Origin: Gemmatimonadota bacterium
Lineage (GTDB): Bacteria; Gemmatimonadota; Gemmatimonadetes; Gemmatimonadales; Gemmatimonadaceae
Direction: 5' to 3'
Length of the DNA stretch: 64,000 nt
NCBI GenBank assembly: GCA_028287235.1
Contig: JAQBQB010000002.1
Coordinates: forward strand, 248,001-312,000
This document shows, in pieces, positions 47,826 to 59,024 of the stretch. Every line of letters starts with the position of its first letter. Position 1 is the first letter of the stretch. The notes below the pieces were generated by a model. The model searched no databases, was not told the DNA's origin, and was given only the letters and a program-made list of their open reading frames with translations. The position numbers and the translations under genes are program-made.

Positions 47826-50143
47826 CGTACTACCAGGTGGCTCGTGAGCCCTCCGATCATCACATCGAAATCGCCCGGTTCCACGACGAAGCGATTGTCG
47901 ATGCCGACGAACGCCAACCGCTGGATGGGGAGACGAAAAACGACCGTGCGGCGCTCGCCCGGCGCGAGCGAAATCTTGTCGAAGGCGCGCAGCCGCCGCA
48001 CCGGCGGGGCCACCGACGCATATCGGTCGCGTACGTAGAGCTGCACGACCTCCTTCCCCGCTCGGCCTCCGGTATTCGCGACGTCCACCGAAATGCTCAC
48101 CGTGTCGGTGGCGCGAACGCTTTCGCGGCCGACACGCAGATTCGTGTACGCAAACGTGGTGTACGACAGCCCATGGCCAAATCGCCACTCGGGGTTGTAG
48201 CCGCCCTCGGGCCCGCGCGCGCTCGCCTCCTCCGACTCGGCGTGGTCGTACGGCACCAGAGTGGCCGCGGTTCGCGGCCAACTGAACGGCAACCGGCCAC
48301 TCGGGTTCACGTCGCCAAAGAGCACGCCGGCAAGCGCCTCGCCGCCGAAGGGACCGGTCTCGTAGGCAGTCACGATGGCGCGCGCGCTATCCACCGCTTC
48401 GCGCACGAGCCGCGGGCGCGCGTGAAACAGAGTGAGCACCACCGGAGTTCCCGTTGCTTCGATCGCGCGGGCCAGACGCAGCTGCGCCGCGGGCAGGCGC
48501 AAGTCGTCGATGTCGCCCGGCTTCTCGACAATGGGAAATTCGGCAAGCGCGACGATTGCGACGTCCGCGGTGCGCGCCGCCGCGACCGCCGCGGCCAAAT
48601 CACGTTCGTTGTCGAAGTCTGCGCCGCGTACGTACGTCACGCGTTCGGCGCCGACTCGGTCACGGACGGCGTCGAGGAACGTCTTGATGCCGCGCGGATA
48701 CACCGCGGTGTCCGTCCCCTGCCAGGTGTAGCTCCACGAGCCGAACTGCGCCGGCAGCGACGCAGCGCCGGGACCCGTCACGAGCACGCGCGCGGTCTTG
48801 GACAACGGGAGCAGCCCGCGCTCGTTCTTCAACAGCGTGACGGCCTCCTCGGCGGCGGCGCGGCTTGCGGCCTGAAAGGGACGCGACCCGGCACGCGCGA
48901 GCCGCGCGCTGTCGGGCCACGGATTCTCGAACAGGCCCAGCTCGAGCTTGACGCGAAGAATGCGCCGCACCGCTTCATCGATGCGCGTCATCGGGACGCT
49001 GCCCGCGCGCACGAGCGCCGCCAGCGTGTCCGCGAAATTGTAGCTGAGCGGCACCATGCTCATGTCCACGCCGGCCATCACCGCTTGACGCACGGCCTCC
49101 CTGGGCGACGACGCCGTGTGATGCACCGTGTACAGACGCTGGACGTCCTCCCAGTCGCTCACCGCGATGCCGTCGAACTTCAGCTCGTTGCGCAGTAGCC
49201 CGGTGAGAATCTCGTGGCTGGCGTGCACGGGAACGCCGTTCACGTCGCCGGAGTTGACCATCACGGTGCGCAATCCGGCGTCGATGGCGGCGCGGAACGT
49301 CGGCAGGTAGTACTCGCGCAGCTGCCGCTCGGGGATGAGCGCGGTGGTTCGATCCCTCCCGCTCACCGGCGCGCTGTAGCCGAGAAAGTGCTTGCCCGTC
49401 GCGGCGACGAAGACGGTGCCCGCCGGCCCGCGCGAGCGAAGTGGCGCTTCAGGAAAGAGTGAATCGAGCGTCGGGCGCGGGTCGCGCTGCTCCCCCAACA
49501 CCGCTTCGCGTCCGAGCACCGTGGCGAGATACACATCCTCGCCGTACGTCTCGAAGAAGCGAGACCAGAGCGGCTGCCGGCCCAGGTCGAGCACCGGAGC
49601 GAAGTTCCAGGGAATTCCGGCCGCGCGCGTCTCGTATGCCGTGATCTCGTGCTCGCGGCGAACGAGTGCCGGGTTCCACGTTGCCGCCATCGCGATGCTC
49701 TGCGGAAACACCGTCGCACCGGACATGTAGTGGAAGCCGTGCACCGCATCGATGCCGTAGATCACGGGGATCGCAAGACGCTTGCGCGCCGCGACCCGCT
49801 GCACCGTGGTGGTGAGCTCGAGCCAGCGGGCCGGGGTGAGCGCCACGTCCCATACGTTGAGCAACGAGCCGACGTGATGGCGCAGCAGCGCATCCTCGAG
49901 CTTTGCCGTGTCGATCTGCTGCGGCGTATCGGCCGTGCCATGAACGCGGGACACCGCCTCGATGGTCAACTGCGTCATCTCGCCGACCTTCTCCTCCAGG
50001 GTCATCCGCCGGAGGAGTTGGTCGATGCGCGCTTCGATCTGAGCTTTCGAACCCTGCGCGCCGAGCGGAAGCGCGAGCACCGCCGCGATGGCGAACGTCA
50101 GGACCGTGGTGCCGCGCGTCCGGCGAGCGAACATGGTATGCAT
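47822..50143 (-). CDS. GH3 beta-glucosidase, exported
   Basis: A 773-residue GH3 enzyme with an N-terminal signal (about 12-30), the TIM-barrel domain with MTLEEKVGEMTQ, YGIDAVHGF, KHFLGYSAPVSGRD, the nucleophile in GIAVSDWEDV (Asp330), the alpha/beta sandwich (about 400-620, GPGAASLPAQFGSWSY), and the fibronectin-III-like C-terminal domain (VANTGGRAGKEVVQLYVRD). This is the full length of periplasmic BglX-like enzymes, which release terminal beta-linked glucose. Its ATG shares one base with the SusD stop (TGATG), so it is translationally coupled. Confidence 0.94.
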   Translation of the reverse strand: MHTMFARRTRGTTVLTFAIAAVLALPLGAQGSKAQIEARIDQLLRRMTLEEKVGEMTQLTIEAVSRVHGTADTPQQIDTAKLEDALLRHHVGSLLNVWDVALTPARWLELTTTVQRVAARKRLAIPVIYGIDAVHGFHYMSGATVFPQSIAMAATWNPALVRREHEITAYETRAAGIPWNFAPVLDLGRQPLWSRFFETYGEDVYLATVLGREAVLGEQRDPRPTLDSLFPEAPLRSRGPAGTVFVAATGKHFLGYSAPVSGRDRTTALIPERQLREYYLPTFRAAIDAGLRTVMVNSGDVNGVPVHASHEILTGLLRNELKFDGIAVSDWEDVQRLYTVHHTASSPREAVRQAVMAGVDMSMVPLSYNFADTLAALVRAGSVPMTRIDEAVRRILRVKLELGLFENPWPDSARLARAGSRPFQAASRAAAEEAVTLLKNERGLLPLSKTARVLVTGPGAASLPAQFGSWSYTWQGTDTAVYPRGIKTFLDAVRDRVGAERVTYVRGADFDNERDLAAAVAAARTADVAIVALAEFPIVEKPGDIDDLRLPAAQLRLARAIEATGTPVVLTLFHARPRLVREAVDSARAIVTAYETGPFGGEALAGVLFGDVNPSGRLPFSWPRTAATLVPYDHAESEEASARGPEGGYNPEWRFGHGLSYTTFAYTNLRVGRESVRATDTVSISVDVANTGGRAGKEVVQLYVRDRYASVAPPVRRLRAFDKISLAPGERRTVVFRLPIQRLAFVGIDNRFVVEPGDFDVMIGGLTSHLVVR

Positions 50144-51651
50144 CACCAGCCAGGGTTCTGAGTGAGCAACTTGTTGTTGTTGATCTGTCCCGACGGAATC
50201 GGGAACAGGCTGCCCGGCGCACCGTGCACCGACGTTTCGCCCGGGAAGAGCGTCGCCATCAACGCCGTCTTGGCTTTGACGGTAGCGTCCAGCGTGCCCC
50301 ACCGCGAGAGGTCGAACCAACGCTGCCCCTCGAACGCGAACTCGCGGCGGCGCTCCACGCGAATGGAATCGGTCAGCGCGGACGACGACAGTCCCGCCAC
50401 GGTCGAAATGCCGGCGCGAGAACGAACCAGGTTGAGCGCTGCCTCAGCGGTGCCCGCCGTGGCTACGCCGCCAGCGCTCACCGCCTCGGCGTAGATGAGC
50501 AACACGTCGGCGTAGCGCTGGATGATCCAGTTGTTCGGCTGCTGCTGCCACGAGCGTGCCGTCATGTCCTTGGTGCTCGTCTCGTCGAGCCACTTATGGA
50601 ACGCCGATCCGTTGGGAACGCCCCAGGTGGCCGTGCGCCCCAACGCATCCTTGTACGGCGAGGTCATGTACGTGGCGCCGTTACCGCGCTGGTCGGCGGT
50701 CGCGTAGAGCGCAACGAGCTGCGGGTTCACCTGCATCAGACCGTACGCGTCGCCGCCCGGAAAGCCGGAGGGGAGGCTGAACAGCGTCTGCACGCTACCA
50801 ACGACTCCCGCCGTCTGCTCCGGCGCACCGTAGTTGATCTCGAAGATGCTCTCGGGATTCGTGTTCTTCACCGAGATGCGGAAGTTGTCCAACCAATGCG
50901 AGTTGAGCGAATACCGGCCGGACGAGATCAATTGCCCCGCGTACTTGGCGGCGTTCGTGTAGTCCTTCTGAGTGAGATAGACCTTGGCCAGGAGCGCCGT
51001 CGCGGCGCCCGACGTAGCGCGTCCGACATCGGGGCCCGAGTACGAGGTTGGCAGCTGCGTGACGGCCGATTGCAGATCGCTCACGATCGCCGCGTAGACT
51101 TGCGCGGCCGGCGTGCGCGCCACCTGCGCGTCGGCCACCGTCTTGGCCTCGTGCTGGATCAACGGCACGTCCCCGAACAGGCGTACGAGCTCGAAGTTCA
51201 TCAGCGCGCGCAAGTAGTGCGCTTCGCCGAGCACGCGATCGCGCTGCACGGTATCCATGACGATCGCCGGCACGCGGTCGAGCACGATGTTCGCCCGGTT
51301 GATCGTGATGTAGGCGTTGCTCCACACGTTGTCGAGCGACCAGAGCGTGGGATCGAACGTGTACGATGCGAGCTGGTGCCCGTCGGCGCCGAAATTCGAC
51401 GTCGCAAAGATGTCGTCCGACGCCACATCGGACTCGTACCAGTAATAGAAGTACACCCACTGCGTCTGGCTGTAGACGGCATTCACCGCCGAGACGGCGT
51501 CAGTCGCGGACTGATAGAAGTTCTCCGGTGCGAGAACGTCCGTGGGTTTCGGTGCGAGAAAGTGGTCGCATGCGCTGAGCGCGAGAGCCGATAGGCTCGC
51601 CAGCAGCATCGCGGCACGGCGGGCGCCCGAACGAAGAGGAGAGGTCAACAT
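50143..51651 (-). CDS. SusD/RagB-family glycan-binding lipoprotein
   Basis: A 502-residue outer-membrane lipoprotein. Lipobox ALSAC (Cys28), then the classical SusD opening DHFLAPKPTDVLAPENFYQSATDAVSAVNAVY, TPR helices (LGEAHYLRALMNFELVRLFGDVPL), and the C-terminal SusD domain with ADVLLIYAEAV, VERRREFAFEGQRWFDLSRWG and the end signature LFPIPSGQINNNKLLTQNPGW. It is a canonical SusD, unlike the more diverged copy at 41028. It follows SusC by 24 bases and is coupled to GH3 by one shared base. Confidence 0.95.
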   Translation of the reverse strand: MLTSPLRSGARRAAMLLASLSALALSACDHFLAPKPTDVLAPENFYQSATDAVSAVNAVYSQTQWVYFYYWYESDVASDDIFATSNFGADGHQLASYTFDPTLWSLDNVWSNAYITINRANIVLDRVPAIVMDTVQRDRVLGEAHYLRALMNFELVRLFGDVPLIQHEAKTVADAQVARTPAAQVYAAIVSDLQSAVTQLPTSYSGPDVGRATSGAATALLAKVYLTQKDYTNAAKYAGQLISSGRYSLNSHWLDNFRISVKNTNPESIFEINYGAPEQTAGVVGSVQTLFSLPSGFPGGDAYGLMQVNPQLVALYATADQRGNGATYMTSPYKDALGRTATWGVPNGSAFHKWLDETSTKDMTARSWQQQPNNWIIQRYADVLLIYAEAVSAGGVATAGTAEAALNLVRSRAGISTVAGLSSSALTDSIRVERRREFAFEGQRWFDLSRWGTLDATVKAKTALMATLFPGETSVHGAPGSLFPIPSGQINNNKLLTQNPGW

Positions 51652-51675
51652 GGGATTCGCGTGGCTCCGTCGCGC

Positions 51676-54600
51676 TTAGAAAGCGGTGGTGAAACCGAAC
51701 GTGATCTGTCGTGTCTGCGGATACGTGCCGAAGTCGATTCCCTGCGCGAGGACGCTCGTGGCGTACTCGCTCACTTCGGGATCGAACCCGGTGTACTTGG
51801 TGGTGGTGAAGAAATTCTGCATGCTCGCGTAGATCTGGGCATCGTGCAGACCGCGAATGCGTCCCGCCGCCATCAGCGATTCGGGAATGTGATAGCCCAA
51901 CCGGATGCTCTTGCCTCTGATGTACGAACCGTCTTCCACGAACAGCGTGGATGGCCGCGTGTCGTAGCTGTTCCCCAGCTTGGGCACCGGGATCCCGTTC
52001 GCGCCGCTGCTCGCGGCGGCGAGAACGTCCGTGAGCTGATTGCTGTTTCCGGCGTTGTTGGTGAGCAGTGCTCGCGTGATGTTGTAGATCTGGTTGCCGC
52101 GCGAGAACTGGATGAAGACAGTGAGGTCGAAGTTCCGCACGTTGAATTGATTCGTCAGTCCGCCGGTGTACGTGGGCTGCGCGCTCCCGATGATCTGTTG
52201 ATCGGCGGTCGAGATCCGGCCGTCTCCATTGAGGTCGGCGTAGGTCGGCTGGCCGTTCTTCATCCCGCTGTACACGTAGCCGTAGAATGAGTTGATCGGC
52301 TGCCCAACCTTGAGGATGGTGGGGTTCTGGTTGGCACCCGCGCCCACGCCGACAGGATTCACCAGCTGCGTGTCCGCGCCGATGTTCAACACCCGGTTGC
52401 GGTTCCACGCGATGTTGAACGAAGTGGTCCACCCAAGCGCACCCGTGAGGTTCGCCGTGTTGACCGCCAACTCGATGCCGTGATTGCGGACGCTGCCGAT
52501 GTTCTGCAGTTGCGTGCTGTAGCCAAGCGTGGCCGGGACCGATACCTCGAGCAGGAGATCCTTCGTGGTCTTGTTGTAGGCGTCCGCGGTGATCAGCAGG
52601 CGGCTCCTGAGCATCGCGATATCGAGGCCGGCGTCGGCCTGGTCGGTCGTCTCCCACTTGAGCAGCGGGTTGGCCAGCGTGCTCGGCGCATATCCGACGA
52701 CCTTGGAGCCGTTGAACAGGTACGTGGAGCTTCCCAGGGTCGCGAGAGCGCGATAGTTCCCGATGTCCTGGTTGCCGGTGCGCCCGTAGCTCGTACGCAG
52801 CTTCAGGTCGTCGAACAGGCCGAGGCGCTTGACGAACGATTCGTCCGACAGCCGCCAGGCGATGGCGCCCGACGGGAAAAAGCCATATTGGTTGCCTTCA
52901 CCGAACTTCGACGAGCCGTCTCGGCGTCCCGTGACGGTGAACAAGAACCGGTCGGCGAGATTCCAGTTGGCGCGCGCGAAATACGAGAGGAGCGACGAAT
53001 GCGGCGCGCCGCTCCATACACCGAGGAACGTCCCACCGGAGTTCAACCCGTTCTGGCCCAGGGCGTCGGTGACGAAATTCTGCGAGGTGCCCGAGATGTT
53101 GTCGGAGTTGGTGCGCTGCAAGGTCAATCCACCGAGCAGATCGAGACTATGGAGCAGGCCGAGATCTCCCAGCGCGTAGTGCAGCGTGTTCTCGTTCAGC
53201 CAGGTCGTCACGCTCACGGAGCCGCGGCTGCCCTGCCCGCCGGTCGACACGCCGGGGTAGGTCGTGGAGGGTGAGTAGAAATCCTGCATCGACGAGAGGT
53301 AGTCCCCGCCCAACGACGTCCGGAAGGTGAGGTTCTGAAGCAGCGAGTACTCACCGAACACGTTGCCGACGAAGCGGTTCTGTTCTTCCTGATTCGTGAT
53401 CAACTGCGCGGCGGCGACCGGATTGGCGAATGTCCGGCCATTGGCTGGATTGAGGCCGACGAAGTACTCGCCGCCCGAGCCGCGCGCCGCGAGCGTGGGC
53501 GGCGCGGTGAGCGCGTTGATCAGCACCGACGAGACCTCCTGTCCGGCGCCGCCATTCGGCATCAGCTGCGCTTGGGAGCGGCTGAACGTGAACCGGTTGC
53601 CGACGCGGAAGCGACTGCTAATGTCCTGATCGAAGTTCAGCCGCGCCGTGCCGCGGTCGAGATTCGTGTTCACGATCACGCCGGCCTGCCGCAGGAAATT
53701 GCCGGAGAGGTAGTAGTGCGTATCGGTGGTCCCGCCGGAGAACGAGCCTTCGTAATTCGACGTGGGCGCCGAGCGGAAGATGGCGCTCTGCCAATCGGTA
53801 TTGGGCAGCGCGGCGACCTGATCCGTGGTGTAGAGCGCAGGTTGGCCGGCGTTCAGCCGCGCCGCGTTCGCGTTTTGTGCGAATTGCTGCGCGTTCAGCA
53901 GATCGAGCCGGTGCCGCACCGTCTGCGTGCCGTAGTAGGCACCGAAGTTGGTGTTGTTCGCGCCCGAACGTCCGCGCTTGGTGGTGACGAGGATGACGCC
54001 GTTGGATGCGCGAGCACCGTAGATCGACGTGGCCGAGGCATCCTTCAATACTTCGATGGACTCGATGTCGGCCGGGTTGAGCGCGGCCAGCGGATTCAGT
54101 CCACTGACGCCCTGCGTTTCCAGCGTGCTGGTGTTCGTGCCGTTCGCGCTCGACGAGACCGGAACTCCGTCGATGACGTACAACGGGTCGTTGCCCGCGG
54201 TGATCGAGTTTCCGCCGCGGATGCGCACCGCGGCCGACGCGCCAGGTTGGCCGCTGCCGCCGGTCACCTGCACGCCCGCCGCGTGTCCCTGGAGCGCTTG
54301 CTCCAACGAGACCACCGGCATGCGTTGGATGTCGTCCGAAACCACCGAAGCCACCGAGCCGGTGAGATCGCGGCGCGATTGTGTTCCGTACCCAATCGAC
54401 ACGACTTCGTTGAGTCGCACGGCAACCGAGCGAAGGGAGAAGTTCGCGGTCACCGTCTGGTTCGGCCGCACCAGCACTGTGGCGCTGTCACGCCCGAGCC
54501 CGATACGCTGCACGAACACCGTGCGCGTTCCCTCCGGCACGCCGTTGAGCGTGTAGCGTCCGTCGGCGTTGGTCACGGCACGGGCAGTCGCGCCGCTCAC

Positions 54601-55158
54601 CGTGACCGCGGCGTCGGACACCGGCTCGCTCGACGCGGCCATCGTCACGCGTCCCGTGACCGTGCCGTTCGCCTCGACGGAGGTCGTCTCGGCCGGAGCC
54701 GCCGGTGCGACCGGCGGCGCGGCAGGCACGAGTGCCATACGCCCTTCCGTCGAGACCCACAGCTCCACGTTCGTGCTGCCGAGCACTTCGTAGAGCACCT
54801 GGAGCACGCTGGCGTCGCGCACGTTCACCGAGACGATGCGGTCGAGGGGTACCACGGCGCGGCTGTACGAGAACGACACGCCGGCACGTCGCGCGATCTC
54901 CTGCAGCACGCGCTCGACGGTGACGTTGCGAAGCGCCATGGTCACGGGCTGACGCAGCAGCACCGGCGCGTCGCTCTCGTCGATCGAGGAGGCGAACCGG
55001 ACGATGTACGCCGACTGGCGCGCGACGAATGGCTGCTGCGCGCGGACAGCGGACACCGGAACGATCGAGGCGACCGCCAGAAGGGCCACGAACATTCGCG
55101 GCGCCGCGCGGCGCGCACAAAAGTCATGTACGCGAGTCGTACAAAATTCAGAAAGCAT
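51676..55158 (-). CDS. SusC-family TonB transporter with STN signalling domain
   Basis: A 1160-residue transporter. After the signal peptide comes an STN (secretin/TonB short N-terminal) domain at about 65-145 (TMALRNVTVERVLQEIARRAG), then a carboxypeptidase-regulatory-like beta domain (VTGRVTMAASSEPVSDAAVTV), a TonB box (LNEVVSIGYG), the plug with NPADIESIEVLKDASATSIYGARASNGVILVTTKRG, and a barrel ending ITFGFTTAF. STN domains contact FecR anti-sigma factors, and a FecR gene lies just upstream, so it both imports and signals. AGGAGG before the ATG at 55158 fixes the start. Confidence 0.94.
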   Translation of the reverse strand: MLSEFCTTRVHDFCARRAAPRMFVALLAVASIVPVSAVRAQQPFVARQSAYIVRFASSIDESDAPVLLRQPVTMALRNVTVERVLQEIARRAGVSFSYSRAVVPLDRIVSVNVRDASVLQVLYEVLGSTNVELWVSTEGRMALVPAAPPVAPAAPAETTSVEANGTVTGRVTMAASSEPVSDAAVTVSGATARAVTNADGRYTLNGVPEGTRTVFVQRIGLGRDSATVLVRPNQTVTANFSLRSVAVRLNEVVSIGYGTQSRRDLTGSVASVVSDDIQRMPVVSLEQALQGHAAGVQVTGGSGQPGASAAVRIRGGNSITAGNDPLYVIDGVPVSSSANGTNTSTLETQGVSGLNPLAALNPADIESIEVLKDASATSIYGARASNGVILVTTKRGRSGANNTNFGAYYGTQTVRHRLDLLNAQQFAQNANAARLNAGQPALYTTDQVAALPNTDWQSAIFRSAPTSNYEGSFSGGTTDTHYYLSGNFLRQAGVIVNTNLDRGTARLNFDQDISSRFRVGNRFTFSRSQAQLMPNGGAGQEVSSVLINALTAPPTLAARGSGGEYFVGLNPANGRTFANPVAAAQLITNQEEQNRFVGNVFGEYSLLQNLTFRTSLGGDYLSSMQDFYSPSTTYPGVSTGGQGSRGSVSVTTWLNENTLHYALGDLGLLHSLDLLGGLTLQRTNSDNISGTSQNFVTDALGQNGLNSGGTFLGVWSGAPHSSLLSYFARANWNLADRFLFTVTGRRDGSSKFGEGNQYGFFPSGAIAWRLSDESFVKRLGLFDDLKLRTSYGRTGNQDIGNYRALATLGSSTYLFNGSKVVGYAPSTLANPLLKWETTDQADAGLDIAMLRSRLLITADAYNKTTKDLLLEVSVPATLGYSTQLQNIGSVRNHGIELAVNTANLTGALGWTTSFNIAWNRNRVLNIGADTQLVNPVGVGAGANQNPTILKVGQPINSFYGYVYSGMKNGQPTYADLNGDGRISTADQQIIGSAQPTYTGGLTNQFNVRNFDLTVFIQFSRGNQIYNITRALLTNNAGNSNQLTDVLAAASSGANGIPVPKLGNSYDTRPSTLFVEDGSYIRGKSIRLGYHIPESLMAAGRIRGLHDAQIYASMQNFFTTTKYTGFDPEVSEYATSVLAQGIDFGTYPQTRQITFGFTTAF

Positions 55159-55245
55159 GAAGCCTCCTCGCGCGCGCAGGCGCGGGTGATCGAGAGGTTC
55201 GTGGCGCACAGTGGCGCATGCGCGAAGCGATCGAAGCGGACATGG

Positions 55246-56349
55246 TCATCGTGCCGGACGCGCGGCAGCGGGTGGCCGCGGGGGCGGCGTCAAGCCGCCG
55301 ACCCGGGCGAGCGTGACGCGGTCCCCGTCGCGCTGCACACGGAGACCGAGCGTAGCCGCAACGACGCCGATCGACGTGCGAAACGACGCGTCGGTCAGGA
55401 CACCGGTGAACGGCAGCGTACGAAGGGCTGAATCGGCAAGCTGCACGTCGACGTCGTGCCAGCGTCGCAGCTCCAGCAGTACGGCGGAGAGTGGTGCGTC
55501 GCGGAACACGAGGCGGCCCTCGAGCCACCCCAGCAACGAGTCGACCCGCACGCCACGCGTCAGGCTCGTGGCTCCGTTCACGCCGATACGTCCAACGTCG
55601 CCCGCGCCGAGCTTGCCGACCTGACTCAACGCCACGACACCGCTGCGGACGACGACCCGCACGGCGGCATCGTCGCTGTAGCTGCGCACGGAAAACGCAG
55701 TGCCCAAGTCGCGCGCCACTGCGTTCCGCGCGAAGACGCTGAACGGGCGCTGCGTATCGTGCACGACCTCGAAGTACCCCTCACCCTCGAGGTAGACGTC
55801 GCGTCGCGTGTCGCCGAAGCTCGCCGCCACACGAAGACGGCTCGCCGGCGCCAGGTGCACGCGAGTGCCGTCGGAGAGCCGAAGCTCCGCGCGCTCGCGA
55901 TTCGCGGTGACGAACGTCTCGTCCGTCCGAGCAGCGACAGCGTCGACCGGTCGGCGGGTGGCGCGATATACTCCGCCCGCGGCGAGCGCCGCGATGCATG
56001 CGACGACCGCGGCGGCAACCCCGGCGCGCCGCCAGGGCGACATCCGATGTGGCTGCAGCATCGCCATGAGATGCCGAGAGGGCGGCGCGGTGGACACCGG
56101 CGGCGCAATCCGCATCGGCGCGGCCGGCGACATCGACGACTGCTCGAGCGCGCGCCGGCGCATCGTGTCCCAGGACAGAGACGCGTCGGGAACGGCCGGG
56201 CGATCGCCCTCTCCGTCGAGCTGCTGGAGATACGCCGACAGCGCGCCCGCGACGTTCGGGCGCGCCATCAGGTAGCGGCGCACGACCGCCGCTTCCTGTT
56301 CTGTGCACTCGCCAGCGAGATAGCGGTCGAGGAGCTCGGGTTCCAGCAT
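55246..56349 (-). CDS. FecR-family anti-sigma factor
   Basis: Inner-membrane signal transducer of 367 residues. The cytoplasmic N-terminus (DRYLAGECTEQEAAVVRRYL) is the anti-sigma part, a single membrane helix lies at about 108-128 (GVAAAVVACIAALAAGGVY), and the periplasmic FecR domain follows (about 145-240; ELRLSDGTRVHLAPASRLRV, FEVVHDTQRPFSVFARNAVARDLGTAFSVRSY). The C-terminal DUF4974-like domain (RLVFRDAPLSAVLLELRRWHDVDVQL) would meet the STN domain of SusC. It starts 54 bases after the sigma gene, giving the usual sigma/anti-sigma/receptor order. Confidence 0.94.
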   Translation of the reverse strand: MLEPELLDRYLAGECTEQEAAVVRRYLMARPNVAGALSAYLQQLDGEGDRPAVPDASLSWDTMRRRALEQSSMSPAAPMRIAPPVSTAPPSRHLMAMLQPHRMSPWRRAGVAAAVVACIAALAAGGVYRATRRPVDAVAARTDETFVTANRERAELRLSDGTRVHLAPASRLRVAASFGDTRRDVYLEGEGYFEVVHDTQRPFSVFARNAVARDLGTAFSVRSYSDDAAVRVVVRSGVVALSQVGKLGAGDVGRIGVNGATSLTRGVRVDSLLGWLEGRLVFRDAPLSAVLLELRRWHDVDVQLADSALRTLPFTGVLTDASFRTSIGVVAATLGLRVQRDGDRVTLARVGGLTPPPRPPAAARPAR

Positions 56350-56403
56350 GATGCCACTACGTACCGCGAGCGCCCCGAACGTTACACCTGCGTTACCGCA
56401 GCC

Positions 56404-56979
56404 CTACCGGCGAACCCGATCGAGAAGCGCGGCGAGATCGGTGCGCGCCCTGCTGAGCAGCACGCGAACGGCTTCCGGCGTGGTCCCGAGGACGTTCGCG
56501 ATCTCGAGCGGCGACATGTCTTCCTTCCAGCGCAACGTCATCGCGATGCGCCGCCGCTCGGGCAGCTCGGCCAGGGCGCGCTCGATCGCCTCGTCGAGCT
56601 CATTCGCTTCCACGGTCTCCTGCTGGCCCGGCGGCCGCTCGCCCATCGTCGACGATTCGACGTGAGCGGTGCGCGCCACCACACGCTCGTGCCGCAGATG
56701 ATTCAGTGCGAGATTCCGCACGGCCGCGAACAGCCACGCCCGCACTCGCGTGGTGACCTGCCACGACGCACGCGTTCCCCACAGCGAAAGGAAGACGTCC
56801 TGCACGAGCTCCTCGGCCACGTCGCGCGAGCGCACGTACGTGTAAGCGAACTTCCAGAGCCCGTCATGATGCGCCAGGTACAAGGCACGAAAGGCCGCCT
56901 CGTCGCCGGCACGAATGCGGGCGATGAGGTCCGACTCATCATTCGGTATGCCGGCGAGCGGTTCCAGTACGACGCGCAT
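56404..56979 (-). CDS. ECF RNA polymerase sigma factor (FecI-like)
   Basis: A 191-residue extracytoplasmic-function sigma factor. Region 2 is at about 20-90 (RIRAGDEAAFRALYLAHHDGLWKFAYTYV, VAEELVQDVFLSLW), region 4 at about 130-185 (LPERRRIAMTLRWKEDMSPLEIANVLGTTPEAVRVLLSRAR). It should direct transcription of the SusC/SusD/GH operon once released from FecR. The ATG at 56979 is chosen; a GTG at 56991 could add four residues. It has no upstream autoregulatory sequence that I can recognise. Confidence 0.93.
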   Translation of the reverse strand: MRVVLEPLAGIPNDESDLIARIRAGDEAAFRALYLAHHDGLWKFAYTYVRSRDVAEELVQDVFLSLWGTRASWQVTTRVRAWLFAAVRNLALNHLRHERVVARTAHVESSTMGERPPGQQETVEANELDEAIERALAELPERRRIAMTLRWKEDMSPLEIANVLGTTPEAVRVLLSRARTDLAALLDRVRR

Positions 56980-57102
56980 GCGAAGAGCCACGACCGTAAA
57001 TGCTGCAGTGGTCGGCCGGCGGCGGCCTGTCTGTGGCGAACATAACGCCGGGATCCGGTTCCGCTACCGGTCGGCCGAGATTCGATCCCTGCCCGAAGAC
57101 CT

Positions 57103-58557
57103 CTACTCGCCGCCGCGCTTGGTCTTGATCGTGATGACCCCCTTGGGCGCGTCCGGATCGCTGTAGTGCAGCGCTGCCGACGGACCCTTGATCACTTCGA
57201 CGCTCTCGATCTGCTTCGGGTCCAGTGCTTTCATCTGGGCCTCGGTCGAGCGAACGCCGTCGATGAGAATGACGCCGGTAAATGCCGGCTTCGGCGAGTT
57301 GGACACCGCGATGGGGACCGGAACGGTGAGCACGCGGCCCGAGTCGCCCGCGGCCGTCGATGCCGGCGCGCGGGTTTGGATGTTGATCTGCGTCGGCGTG
57401 CCCTTCGCTCCCGTGACGATCTGCACTCGACCCACCGCGGCCGGCGCCAACGCCGACGCGTCCGATGCAGTCGCAGCCGCTCCGTCGACCGTGTAGGCGA
57501 CGGTCGTGTCGGCGTGCCTCGCCTTGGCCAGCTCGCGCGCTGCGCGCGCCGCCGTCGCGACGTCCATCCGCTCGATTTCCGCGTCGGTGGGGAGCGTGGT
57601 CTGACAGGCGACCAGCACGCCGGCGAGCGCGAACGCCGCGGCGAGCCCGCCGCGCAGCCGCGCAAAGCGCGGAACGATGGGTTTCATGGCGAGGATTCTC
57701 TGATAGAGGTGAGACGAGTCGTCGGCGAGCGCCAGGGCACTCAACCGAAGCACCGACGCGTGCTGCGCAACGTCGATGAGCAGCGATCCGTACGAACGCG
57801 GCGCCGCGCCGCGACGCAGCACGCGCGCGTCGCAGTCCAGCTCGACGGCGAGCCGAAGGCGAGAGAGCATGTACCAGAGGCCTGGGTTCCAGGGAGCGAC
57901 GACCACGGCACTCCACGCCAGCCCGAGGAGCAGCGGATCGCGCGCGCGGACGTGCTCGTCCTCGTGCGTCACGACCATGCGTTGATCGTCGGCGTGCCGG
58001 GCCAGCAGCCAGCGCGGAACGACGATCTCGGGGCGCACGAATCCGACGACGACGGGCCCGATGTGCGGCGCGACACGAACCTCCACGCCCTCCATCGTGA
58101 CGAGCGGCCACTCACGCCGCGCGCGGCGAAAGCGCCGTCCGACGCCAACCAGCGCGAGCAGGAGGCCGACGCTGATCACCGACGACAGCAATGCAACGTA
58201 GGTGTCCGCGGCGGGCGAGACCGCGCGGTGCACGGTCGCAAGCCCCACGCGCACGGGTGTGCCGAGCTCTCTGCGTAGCGTTGCAATGCGCGCGACGAGC
58301 AGCGCGCGCCATGATGCGCCGGCCGGCACGTGAGCAGCGCCGCCCGGATCGAGCGTCGGGACGACTGCCGTCGCAAGCGCAGCATCTCCTCGTCCGGGCA
58401 ACAACGCCAACGCCGACAGGTACAGCGTGAGCGCGAGCGCGCCGGCCCAGATCCAACGAACGCGGTACCCGGCGAGCCGCGCCAGCCAGTCCGCGGCCCG
58501 CGCCGCGGCGGCGACGATCAGCGCGACGAGGGCGCTGTACAGCATCCACACGATCAT
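57103..58557 (-). CDS. M56 (BlaR1-like) membrane metallopeptidase with TonB-plug-like tail
   Basis: A 484-residue sensor protease. N-terminal membrane helices (about 3-20, 36-52, 120-140), the M56 site VVTHEDEHVRARDPLL (HEDEH at 198-202), the distal ligand helix VELDCDARVL (239-247), and a further helix at about 300-318 ending in VLVAC. The outer part differs from BlaR1, which ends in a penicillin-binding domain: here the tail (about 375-484) reads IVTGAKGTPTQINIQTRAP and then PAFTGVILIDGVRS, DPKQIESVEVIKGPSAALHY and KGVITIKTKR, the pattern of a TonB receptor plug. It overlaps the blaI-like stop by ATGA and should cleave that repressor on sensing a signal. Confidence 0.9.
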   Translation of the reverse strand: MIVWMLYSALVALIVAAAARAADWLARLAGYRVRWIWAGALALTLYLSALALLPGRGDAALATAVVPTLDPGGAAHVPAGASWRALLVARIATLRRELGTPVRVGLATVHRAVSPAADTYVALLSSVISVGLLLALVGVGRRFRRARREWPLVTMEGVEVRVAPHIGPVVVGFVRPEIVVPRWLLARHADDQRMVVTHEDEHVRARDPLLLGLAWSAVVVAPWNPGLWYMLSRLRLAVELDCDARVLRRGAAPRSYGSLLIDVAQHASVLRLSALALADDSSHLYQRILAMKPIVPRFARLRGGLAAAFALAGVLVACQTTLPTDAEIERMDVATAARAARELAKARHADTTVAYTVDGAAATASDASALAPAAVGRVQIVTGAKGTPTQINIQTRAPASTAAGDSGRVLTVPVPIAVSNSPKPAFTGVILIDGVRSTEAQMKALDPKQIESVEVIKGPSAALHYSDPDAPKGVITIKTKRGGE

Positions 58558-58934
58558 CGCTTCTTCTCCTCCAACCGCTCGGCGAGCAGCTCGCGCATCT
58601 GCTCCAGCTCTTTCCGTCCGAGCCGCTTGTCGGCGACCATCTGCGCGAACATCCGCTCCGCCGATCCCTGAAAGATCGCGTCGCGAATGCGTGCGAGCGC
58701 GCTGCCGCCGGCGCGGTCGGCGCCCACCGTGGGGAAGTAGCGGTAGGCGCGCCCTTCGGCCTCGTGCCGCACGAACTTTTTCTCCTCGAGCGTCTGGAGC
58801 GCCGAGAGGACCGAGGTGTACGCGAGGTCCTCGTCGAGCGCCTCGCGCACGTCGGACACGCTCGCCGAGCCGAGCCGCCAGAGAACGCTCATGACCGCGA
58901 GCTCGCGCGGCGGGAAGTAAATCTCGTCCATCAT
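58554..58934 (-). CDS. BlaI/MecI-family transcriptional repressor
   Basis: A 126-residue winged-helix repressor. DNA-binding domain at about 1-75 (PRELAVMSVLWRLGSASVSDVREALDEDLAYTSVLSALQTLEEKKFVRHEAEGRAYRYFP), dimerisation helices to the C-terminus (LGRKELEQMRELLAERLEEKK). GGAG precedes the ATG pair at 58929-58934. It is coupled to the M56 sensor gene. A -35/-10 promoter with an overlapping 7-6-7 inverted repeat lies right upstream, so autorepression relieved by M56 cleavage is the expected mode. Confidence 0.93.
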   Translation of the reverse strand: MMDEIYFPPRELAVMSVLWRLGSASVSDVREALDEDLAYTSVLSALQTLEEKKFVRHEAEGRAYRYFPTVGADRAGGSALARIRDAIFQGSAERMFAQMVADKRLGRKELEQMRELLAERLEEKKR

Positions 58935-58941
58935 TGCTCCA

Positions 58942-58961
58942 TCTACTGGTTCTTCAGTAGA
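58942..58961. promoter_or_regulatory. BlaI-type operator in front of the blaI-like gene
   Basis: Inverted repeat TCTACTG-N6-CAGTAGA, 8 bases before the repressor start on the minus strand. It overlaps the downstream edge of the putative -10 element. Known BlaI/MecI sites are dyads with TACT/AGTA cores; the same architecture occurs at 29189-29208. Confidence 0.75.
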
Positions 58962-58987
58962 GTAGGATCGGACATCCGGCTTGTCAA
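58959..58987 (-). promoter_or_regulatory. Sigma-70-type promoter of the blaI/M56 operon
   Basis: On the minus strand a perfect TTGACA (58982-58987) is followed after 17 bases by TACTCT (58959-58964) as a weak -10. The operator begins inside the -10, which would let the repressor block polymerase. Confidence 0.6.
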
Positions 58988-59024
58988 CTGTTTTTTCCGT
59001 AGCTCGCGTTTGGTAGATTCGGAC

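Follow-up and report, generated by a model that had tools for sequence, protein, structure and literature searches.

A BlaI/M56 gene pair of the BlaR1 type in a Gemmatimonadota genome encodes a protease whose C-terminal tail is, by sequence comparison, a tandem of half-plugs from TonB-dependent receptors behind an internal lipobox. In the best reading, this is a switch tied to TonB-dependent transport and not to beta-lactams. We give an even chance to the fuller proposal, in which the half-plug part relays the state of TonB-dependent receptors to BlaI-repressed genes. Related species have sites for this type of BlaI ahead of outer-membrane receptor genes as well, and on that basis the pair probably adjusts how nutrients are taken up at the outer membrane. 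The parts belong to known families, but their combination (BlaI/M56, duplicated half-plugs, internal lipobox and receptor regulon) was not found in the open-access literature searched.

The analyzed window is a 64,000-nucleotide stretch of this genome. The open reading frame list and translation place a 484-amino-acid protein at 57103-58557 on the minus strand, in which Pfam detects Peptidase_M56 (PF05569; 1.6e-19, 70.6 bits against a cut-off of 31) and Plug (9.2e-10) only. The M56 core spans residues 1-311 (57625-58557, minus strand) and comprises transmembrane helices and a cytoplasmic zinc protease, with evidence from Pfam, Foldseek and profile comparison. Its best Foldseek matches are Staphylococcus aureus BlaR1 structures (8ext/8exq, probability 1.00), and the A2 profile matches BlaR1 8exp with an E-value of 0.005. 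The HEDEH zinc motif (residues 198-202; 57952-57966, minus strand) and the ELDCD motif (residues 239-243; 57829-57843, minus strand; ELDCDA when extended to residue 244) contain H198, E199, H202, E239, D241, C242 and D243, all invariant in 35 aligned rows. They include the zinc ligands that define peptidase family M56, HExxH with a downstream Glu, and the complete M56 core described in the first-pass annotation is upheld. A penicillin-binding or class-D-like sensor domain was not found in the protein, and the blaR1_generic profile scored 38 bits against a cut-off of 400, so the protein falls outside the definition of BlaR1. It also falls outside that of a plug or receptor because it lacks a whole plug and a barrel: the translation and the AlphaFold2 model stop after the plug half, with no 22-strand beta-barrel.

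The plug hallmarks LIDGV, IESVEVIKGPSAALHY and GVITIKTKR are all located in the C-terminal tail, as first reported from the sequence. Pfam Plug (PF07715) matches with 39.4 bits against a cut-off of 23.9, over positions 60-99 (or 59-107) of the 107 in the profile; the N-terminal half of the plug is absent from the tail. The SusC profile TIGR04056 matches the tail at 1.9e-9, siderophore-receptor profiles concur, and a profile of 35 relatives matches SusC structures at 2e-12. Within the same genome, the tail retrieves true receptor plugs with E-values down to 1.4e-7, all inside long open frames typical of receptors. Profile-profile comparison (hhalign) revealed that the tail holds two copies of one module: a degenerate module 1 (residues 350-399; 57361-57510, minus strand) and a module 2 (residues 426-483; 57109-57282, minus strand) that is supported by Pfam Plug, TIGR04056, Foldseek and a pLDDT of about 90-96. 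The two align with a probability of 97.9 and an E-value of 4.5e-13, against at most 3.9 per cent in column-shuffled controls. The relatives keep the same arrangement, with VDGxxV...A..I..I.V...I.IxT followed by GLLLVDGV...L.P..IESVEVIKG.AA..Y.DP.AANGVI.ITTK. On this sequence evidence, the C-terminal half of a plug has been duplicated in tandem to form the tail. The periplasmic plug-like domain first proposed is thus right in its plug origin and its place on a BlaI-paired M56 protease, but it consists of a half plug present twice, where an entire plug had been supposed.

Structure prediction gives the tail the same kind of fold as the matching part of a plug. In the AlphaFold2 model, pLDDT is mostly about 85-95 in both modules, linkers excepted, and module 1 forms a strand-strand-helix-strand-strand unit. 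When the tail alone was compared using Foldseek, the best 50 matches were all TonB-dependent receptors (best E-value 0.004, probability up to 1.00), typically aligned over 55-72 columns with an identity of about 30 per cent. The structure prediction suggested at the outset therefore returned a folded, plug-like tail. The Foldseek E-values are modest, which is unsurprising for a stretch of about 60 residues, and the sequence evidence for plug homology is stronger; VIA-align Z scores reach 4.6 at most, too low to add weight.

The fourth transmembrane helix (TM4; residues 299-319 in the AlphaFold2 model; 57601-57663, minus strand) ends at a lipobox, LVAC (residues 315-318; 57604-57615, minus strand), with Cys318 predicted to be lipidated. 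The tail duplication, this lipobox and the operators at the blaI promoter go beyond the first-pass annotation. A PROSITE-like lipoprotein pattern was matched in 53 of the 53 distinct plug-tailed proteins that include the region, with Cys exactly at the end of TM4, Ala at -1 in every one, and small or aliphatic residues at -2 and -3. Basic residues precede the helix (for example SRPSQFIRSRRLGSGLLATVALLAAC-ESQLPT). The protein thus has the lipobox after a hydrophobic stretch that marks bacterial lipoproteins, but in an internal and not an N-terminal position. Five M56 paralogues from this genome lack an equivalent Cys. Among 75 M56 rows, a lipobox is present in all of the plug-tailed proteins (36/36), in 8/13 TonB_C-tailed ones (assigned by a simple pattern) and in 6/26 others. 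TM4 could therefore also act as the signal peptide of a lipoprotein, in which case the tail may be anchored by lipid or set free; lipidation of Cys318 and cleavage there would follow the lipoprotein pattern. Comparable lipoboxes recur on other Gemmatimonadota M56 proteins with unrelated tails. Outside the plug clade, seven proteins (L101, L104, L109, L116, L119, L123 and L125) have an internal lipobox after TM4, and Pfam confirmed TonB_C in L101, L104, L109 and L116. A separate M56 clade (L090, L094, L095 and L105) has an internal, CEAPVPTDP-like lipobox; the tails of the two members scanned, L094 and L105, gave no Pfam match.

The search for other M56-plug fusions that the first-pass annotation had proposed yielded at least 53 distinct homologues, all from Gemmatimonadota and forming nearly a single clade; because they keep the architecture, the plug tail is not a chance product. 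The relatives came from a first search (L021-L049) and a profile search (L050 onward). A profile was required, as a single-protein search of the genome contigs returned no relatives, and plasmid records gave only two M56 matches, both remote. M56-plug fusions may also occur in Bacteroidota, in line with annotations there. Searches of the open-access literature turned up neither an M56-plug protein nor an internal M56 lipobox. In a tree of M56 cores, the plug-tailed proteins form one group (support 100/98), with two proteins carrying TonB_C tails (L087 and L091; Pfam 5e-10 and 2e-10) nested inside it. Read most simply, the tree has the half-plug tail acquired once and swapped once for a TonB C-terminal domain. 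The origin of both tail types in the TonB-receptor system lends the proposed input circumstantial support.

Upstream of the M56 gene, and overlapping its start by 4 bases, is a gene for a BlaI-family repressor (58554-58931, minus strand; Penicillinase_R, Pfam 9.7e-27), giving the two-gene operon typical of BlaR1-type switches. A BlaI that is 65-82% identical is encoded directly upstream of M56 in every plug-type relative with enough sequence. The blaI-m56 promoter, TTGACA-N17-TACTCT (58959-58987, minus strand), is strong, conserved upstream of blaI in relatives and flanked by paired palindromes of the form TACKG-N6-CMGTA. Operator O1, CTACGGAAAAAACAGTTG (58985-59002, minus strand), overlaps the -35 element, and operator O2, CTACTGAAGAACCAGTAG (58943-58960, minus strand), lies over -10/+1. 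Both operators and TTGACA are found in 33 of the 38 upstream regions of blaI examined in relatives, and BlaI would be expected to bind them. Downstream of M56, no gene is conserved in relatives. At L083, a gene overlapping the M56 stop (7566) by 4 bases looks propeller-like and resembles the propeller genes under operator control in its genus. Two other M56 proteins of the window's genome (L007 and L018) have HEAT-repeat-like tails, and each adjoins its own BlaI-like gene.

We searched for the promoter-operator pattern (GTTGACA-N19..25-TACKG-N6-CMGTA) in 79 genomes of the family and found 24 matches, against one for the mirror-pattern control. A fixed-spacer version allowing at most one mismatch gave 55 exact matches and additional weaker ones in 395 genomes; the mirror control gave about 14, one-mismatch matches included. 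Judged by coordinates, promoter identity to a known one, or reading of the downstream gene, 50 of the 55 exact matches are blaI loci. The other five, with a one-mismatch site that also carries O1, make up the non-blaI sites. Four of these, in three related genomes, precede genes for Oar-like outer-membrane receptors of 1241-1264 amino acids (L191, L192, L193 and L225). The same promoter type precedes a gene for a 404-amino-acid NHL-propeller protein in two genomes (L194 and L224), and a propeller-like gene also lies downstream of the receptor gene in L192. The six sites are not independent: L193 and L225 (70 per cent identical) are orthologues, as are L194 and L224, each pair within one genus. 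L191 shares 53 per cent identity with L193, and from these identities we put the independent number at about three. All five genomes with non-blaI sites also hold a blaI-m56 locus. TonB dependence of the Oar-like receptors is weakly suggested by their CarboxypepD_reg domains, by weak barrel or Plug matches and by a single remote match, in the PDB, to a TonB-linked receptor.

A scan of the window's own genome with the operator pattern, allowing at most one mismatch, revealed no convincing second target; the link to receptors therefore depends on the relatives. Most one-mismatch matches were inside genes and were dismissed as chance, and one exact extra match (C23:507273) is intergenic, without a matching promoter. 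Matches to TTACTGACC-N-GGTCAGTAA were rejected as another motif, as they precede TetR genes. Several Gemmatimonadota genomes (L234-L239) share this TetR-family promoter, which has a TTGAC-type -35 element and a TTACTGACC-N-GGTCAGTAA-like operator. A further M56 protein of the window's genome has an unrelated tail, and its gene lies about 10 bases upstream of a same-strand gene for an Oar-like TonB-dependent receptor (L251:932-4594, minus strand; L004, G000:C1:376940-382331), a point in favour of the receptor link.

In BlaR1 and MecR1, an external sensor activates the M56 domain and repression by BlaI or MecI is lost (PMC7593790). By analogy, the half-plug part would sense receptor state and the M56 domain would relieve BlaI repression. 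BlaI would occupy the two palindromes at the blaI-m56 promoter and repress it. Lgt would lipidate Cys318 and Lsp would probably cut there, leaving the half-plug part as a membrane-anchored lipoprotein beside the protease or separated from it. A change in the assembly, occupancy or abundance of a TonB-dependent receptor in the outer membrane would be relayed via this part. The cytoplasmic M56 domain would then inactivate BlaI, presumably by proteolysis, and the operon would be de-repressed; in some relatives, BlaI loss would also de-repress the Oar-like receptor and propeller genes. An outer-membrane receptor had been named among the possible inputs at first reading. The receptor link has gained ground from the operators before Oar-like genes in three related genomes and from the TonB_C swap in the clade, but the signal itself is one that we infer. 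That the input is something other than beta-lactams agrees with the missing penicillin-binding sensor.

The main fork between the readings is an attached sensor, as in BlaR1, or a released lipoprotein. We tentatively suggest that TM4 serves as a lipoprotein signal peptide, so that one gene would yield a protease and a separately released, lipid-anchored sensor (half-plugs, or a TonB C-terminal domain in the swapped branch) that reports on TonB-dependent receptors, with the protease-BlaI pair adjusting receptor genes. The other branch, to which we give a similarly limited chance, keeps the tail covalently on TM4 with a conformational signal, and Cys318 would be lipidated without cleavage or be structural only. 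The fusion and the BlaI pairing are conserved, as an attached sensor would have it, and BlaR1 signals via such a sensor (PMC7593790). However, a lipobox with Ala at -1 throughout the family, with its basic stretch and short hydrophobic helix, looks like an Lgt/Lsp substrate, and its conservation exceeds the needs of a structural cysteine.

The plug-derived tail would also suit an effector: a half-plug lipoprotein, its dose set by BlaI autoregulation, that would bind or block receptor barrels as a decoy plug or quality-control factor, with the protease mainly a dose controller. Its own operon is the only convincing operator target in the window's genome, but the operator-controlled receptor genes of relatives point to an outward regulon, and we find this role unlikely. 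Plug homology and the TonB_C domains of sister M56 proteins could instead mean that the tail docks with TonB in the manner of a receptor plug and so signals how available TonB is. We consider this improbable, and the earlier suggestion of TonB sensing is not sustained, given that the tail has the second plug half only and a regular expression found a Ton-box-like string in 1 of 36 tails, the chance level. Least probable is a local partnership in which the protein senses the adjacent operon at 50143-56991, on the same strand and with 111 bases from the M56 stop to its sigma gene. SusC, SusD, FecR and sigma homologues were not found beside the M56 genes of relatives and were rejected as conserved partners. 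The operon itself (minus strand) encodes an ECF sigma factor, FecR, SusC (STN and CarboxypepD_reg) and SusD; it is thus a full Sus-like operon, here in a member of the Gemmatimonadota, and includes genes for cell-surface signalling.

Cell-surface signalling of the FecA/FecR/FecI type likewise couples TonB-dependent receptors to transcription of receptor genes, but it relies on an anti-sigma factor and on the N-terminal domain of the receptor itself, with no repressor-cleaving protease. With staphylococcal BlaR1/BlaI and MecR1/MecI, the half-plug system shares an M56 protease with a cytoplasmic HExxH, a BlaI-family repressor encoded in one operon with it, palindromic operators at that operon's promoter and an external C-terminal domain after TM4. 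It differs in having a duplicated half-plug behind a lipobox in place of the penicillin-binding sensor, and in a predicted regulon of outer-membrane receptors instead of beta-lactamase. The tail resembles the plug (PF07715) of SusC/RagA and siderophore receptors in the sequence and predicted fold of its C-terminal half (LIDG...IESVEVIKG...GVITI), but it is without barrel, Ton box and N-terminal half, is duplicated, and sits within a signalling protein. TonB_C-tailed M56 proteins (for example L002 of the same genome, L101 and L109) have the M56 core, a tail from the TonB system and, in some, the lipobox; they carry TonB_C for half-plugs and mostly belong to another branch of the M56 tree.

The proposal offers testable handles in Cys318, the operators and the named target genes in relatives. 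A conserved internal lipobox would be an unusual route to two proteins from one membrane polypeptide. BlaR1-type switches have been studied almost only for beta-lactams, and the M56-half-plug family points to a second use, the control of outer-membrane nutrient receptors by a sensor cut from the receptor itself.
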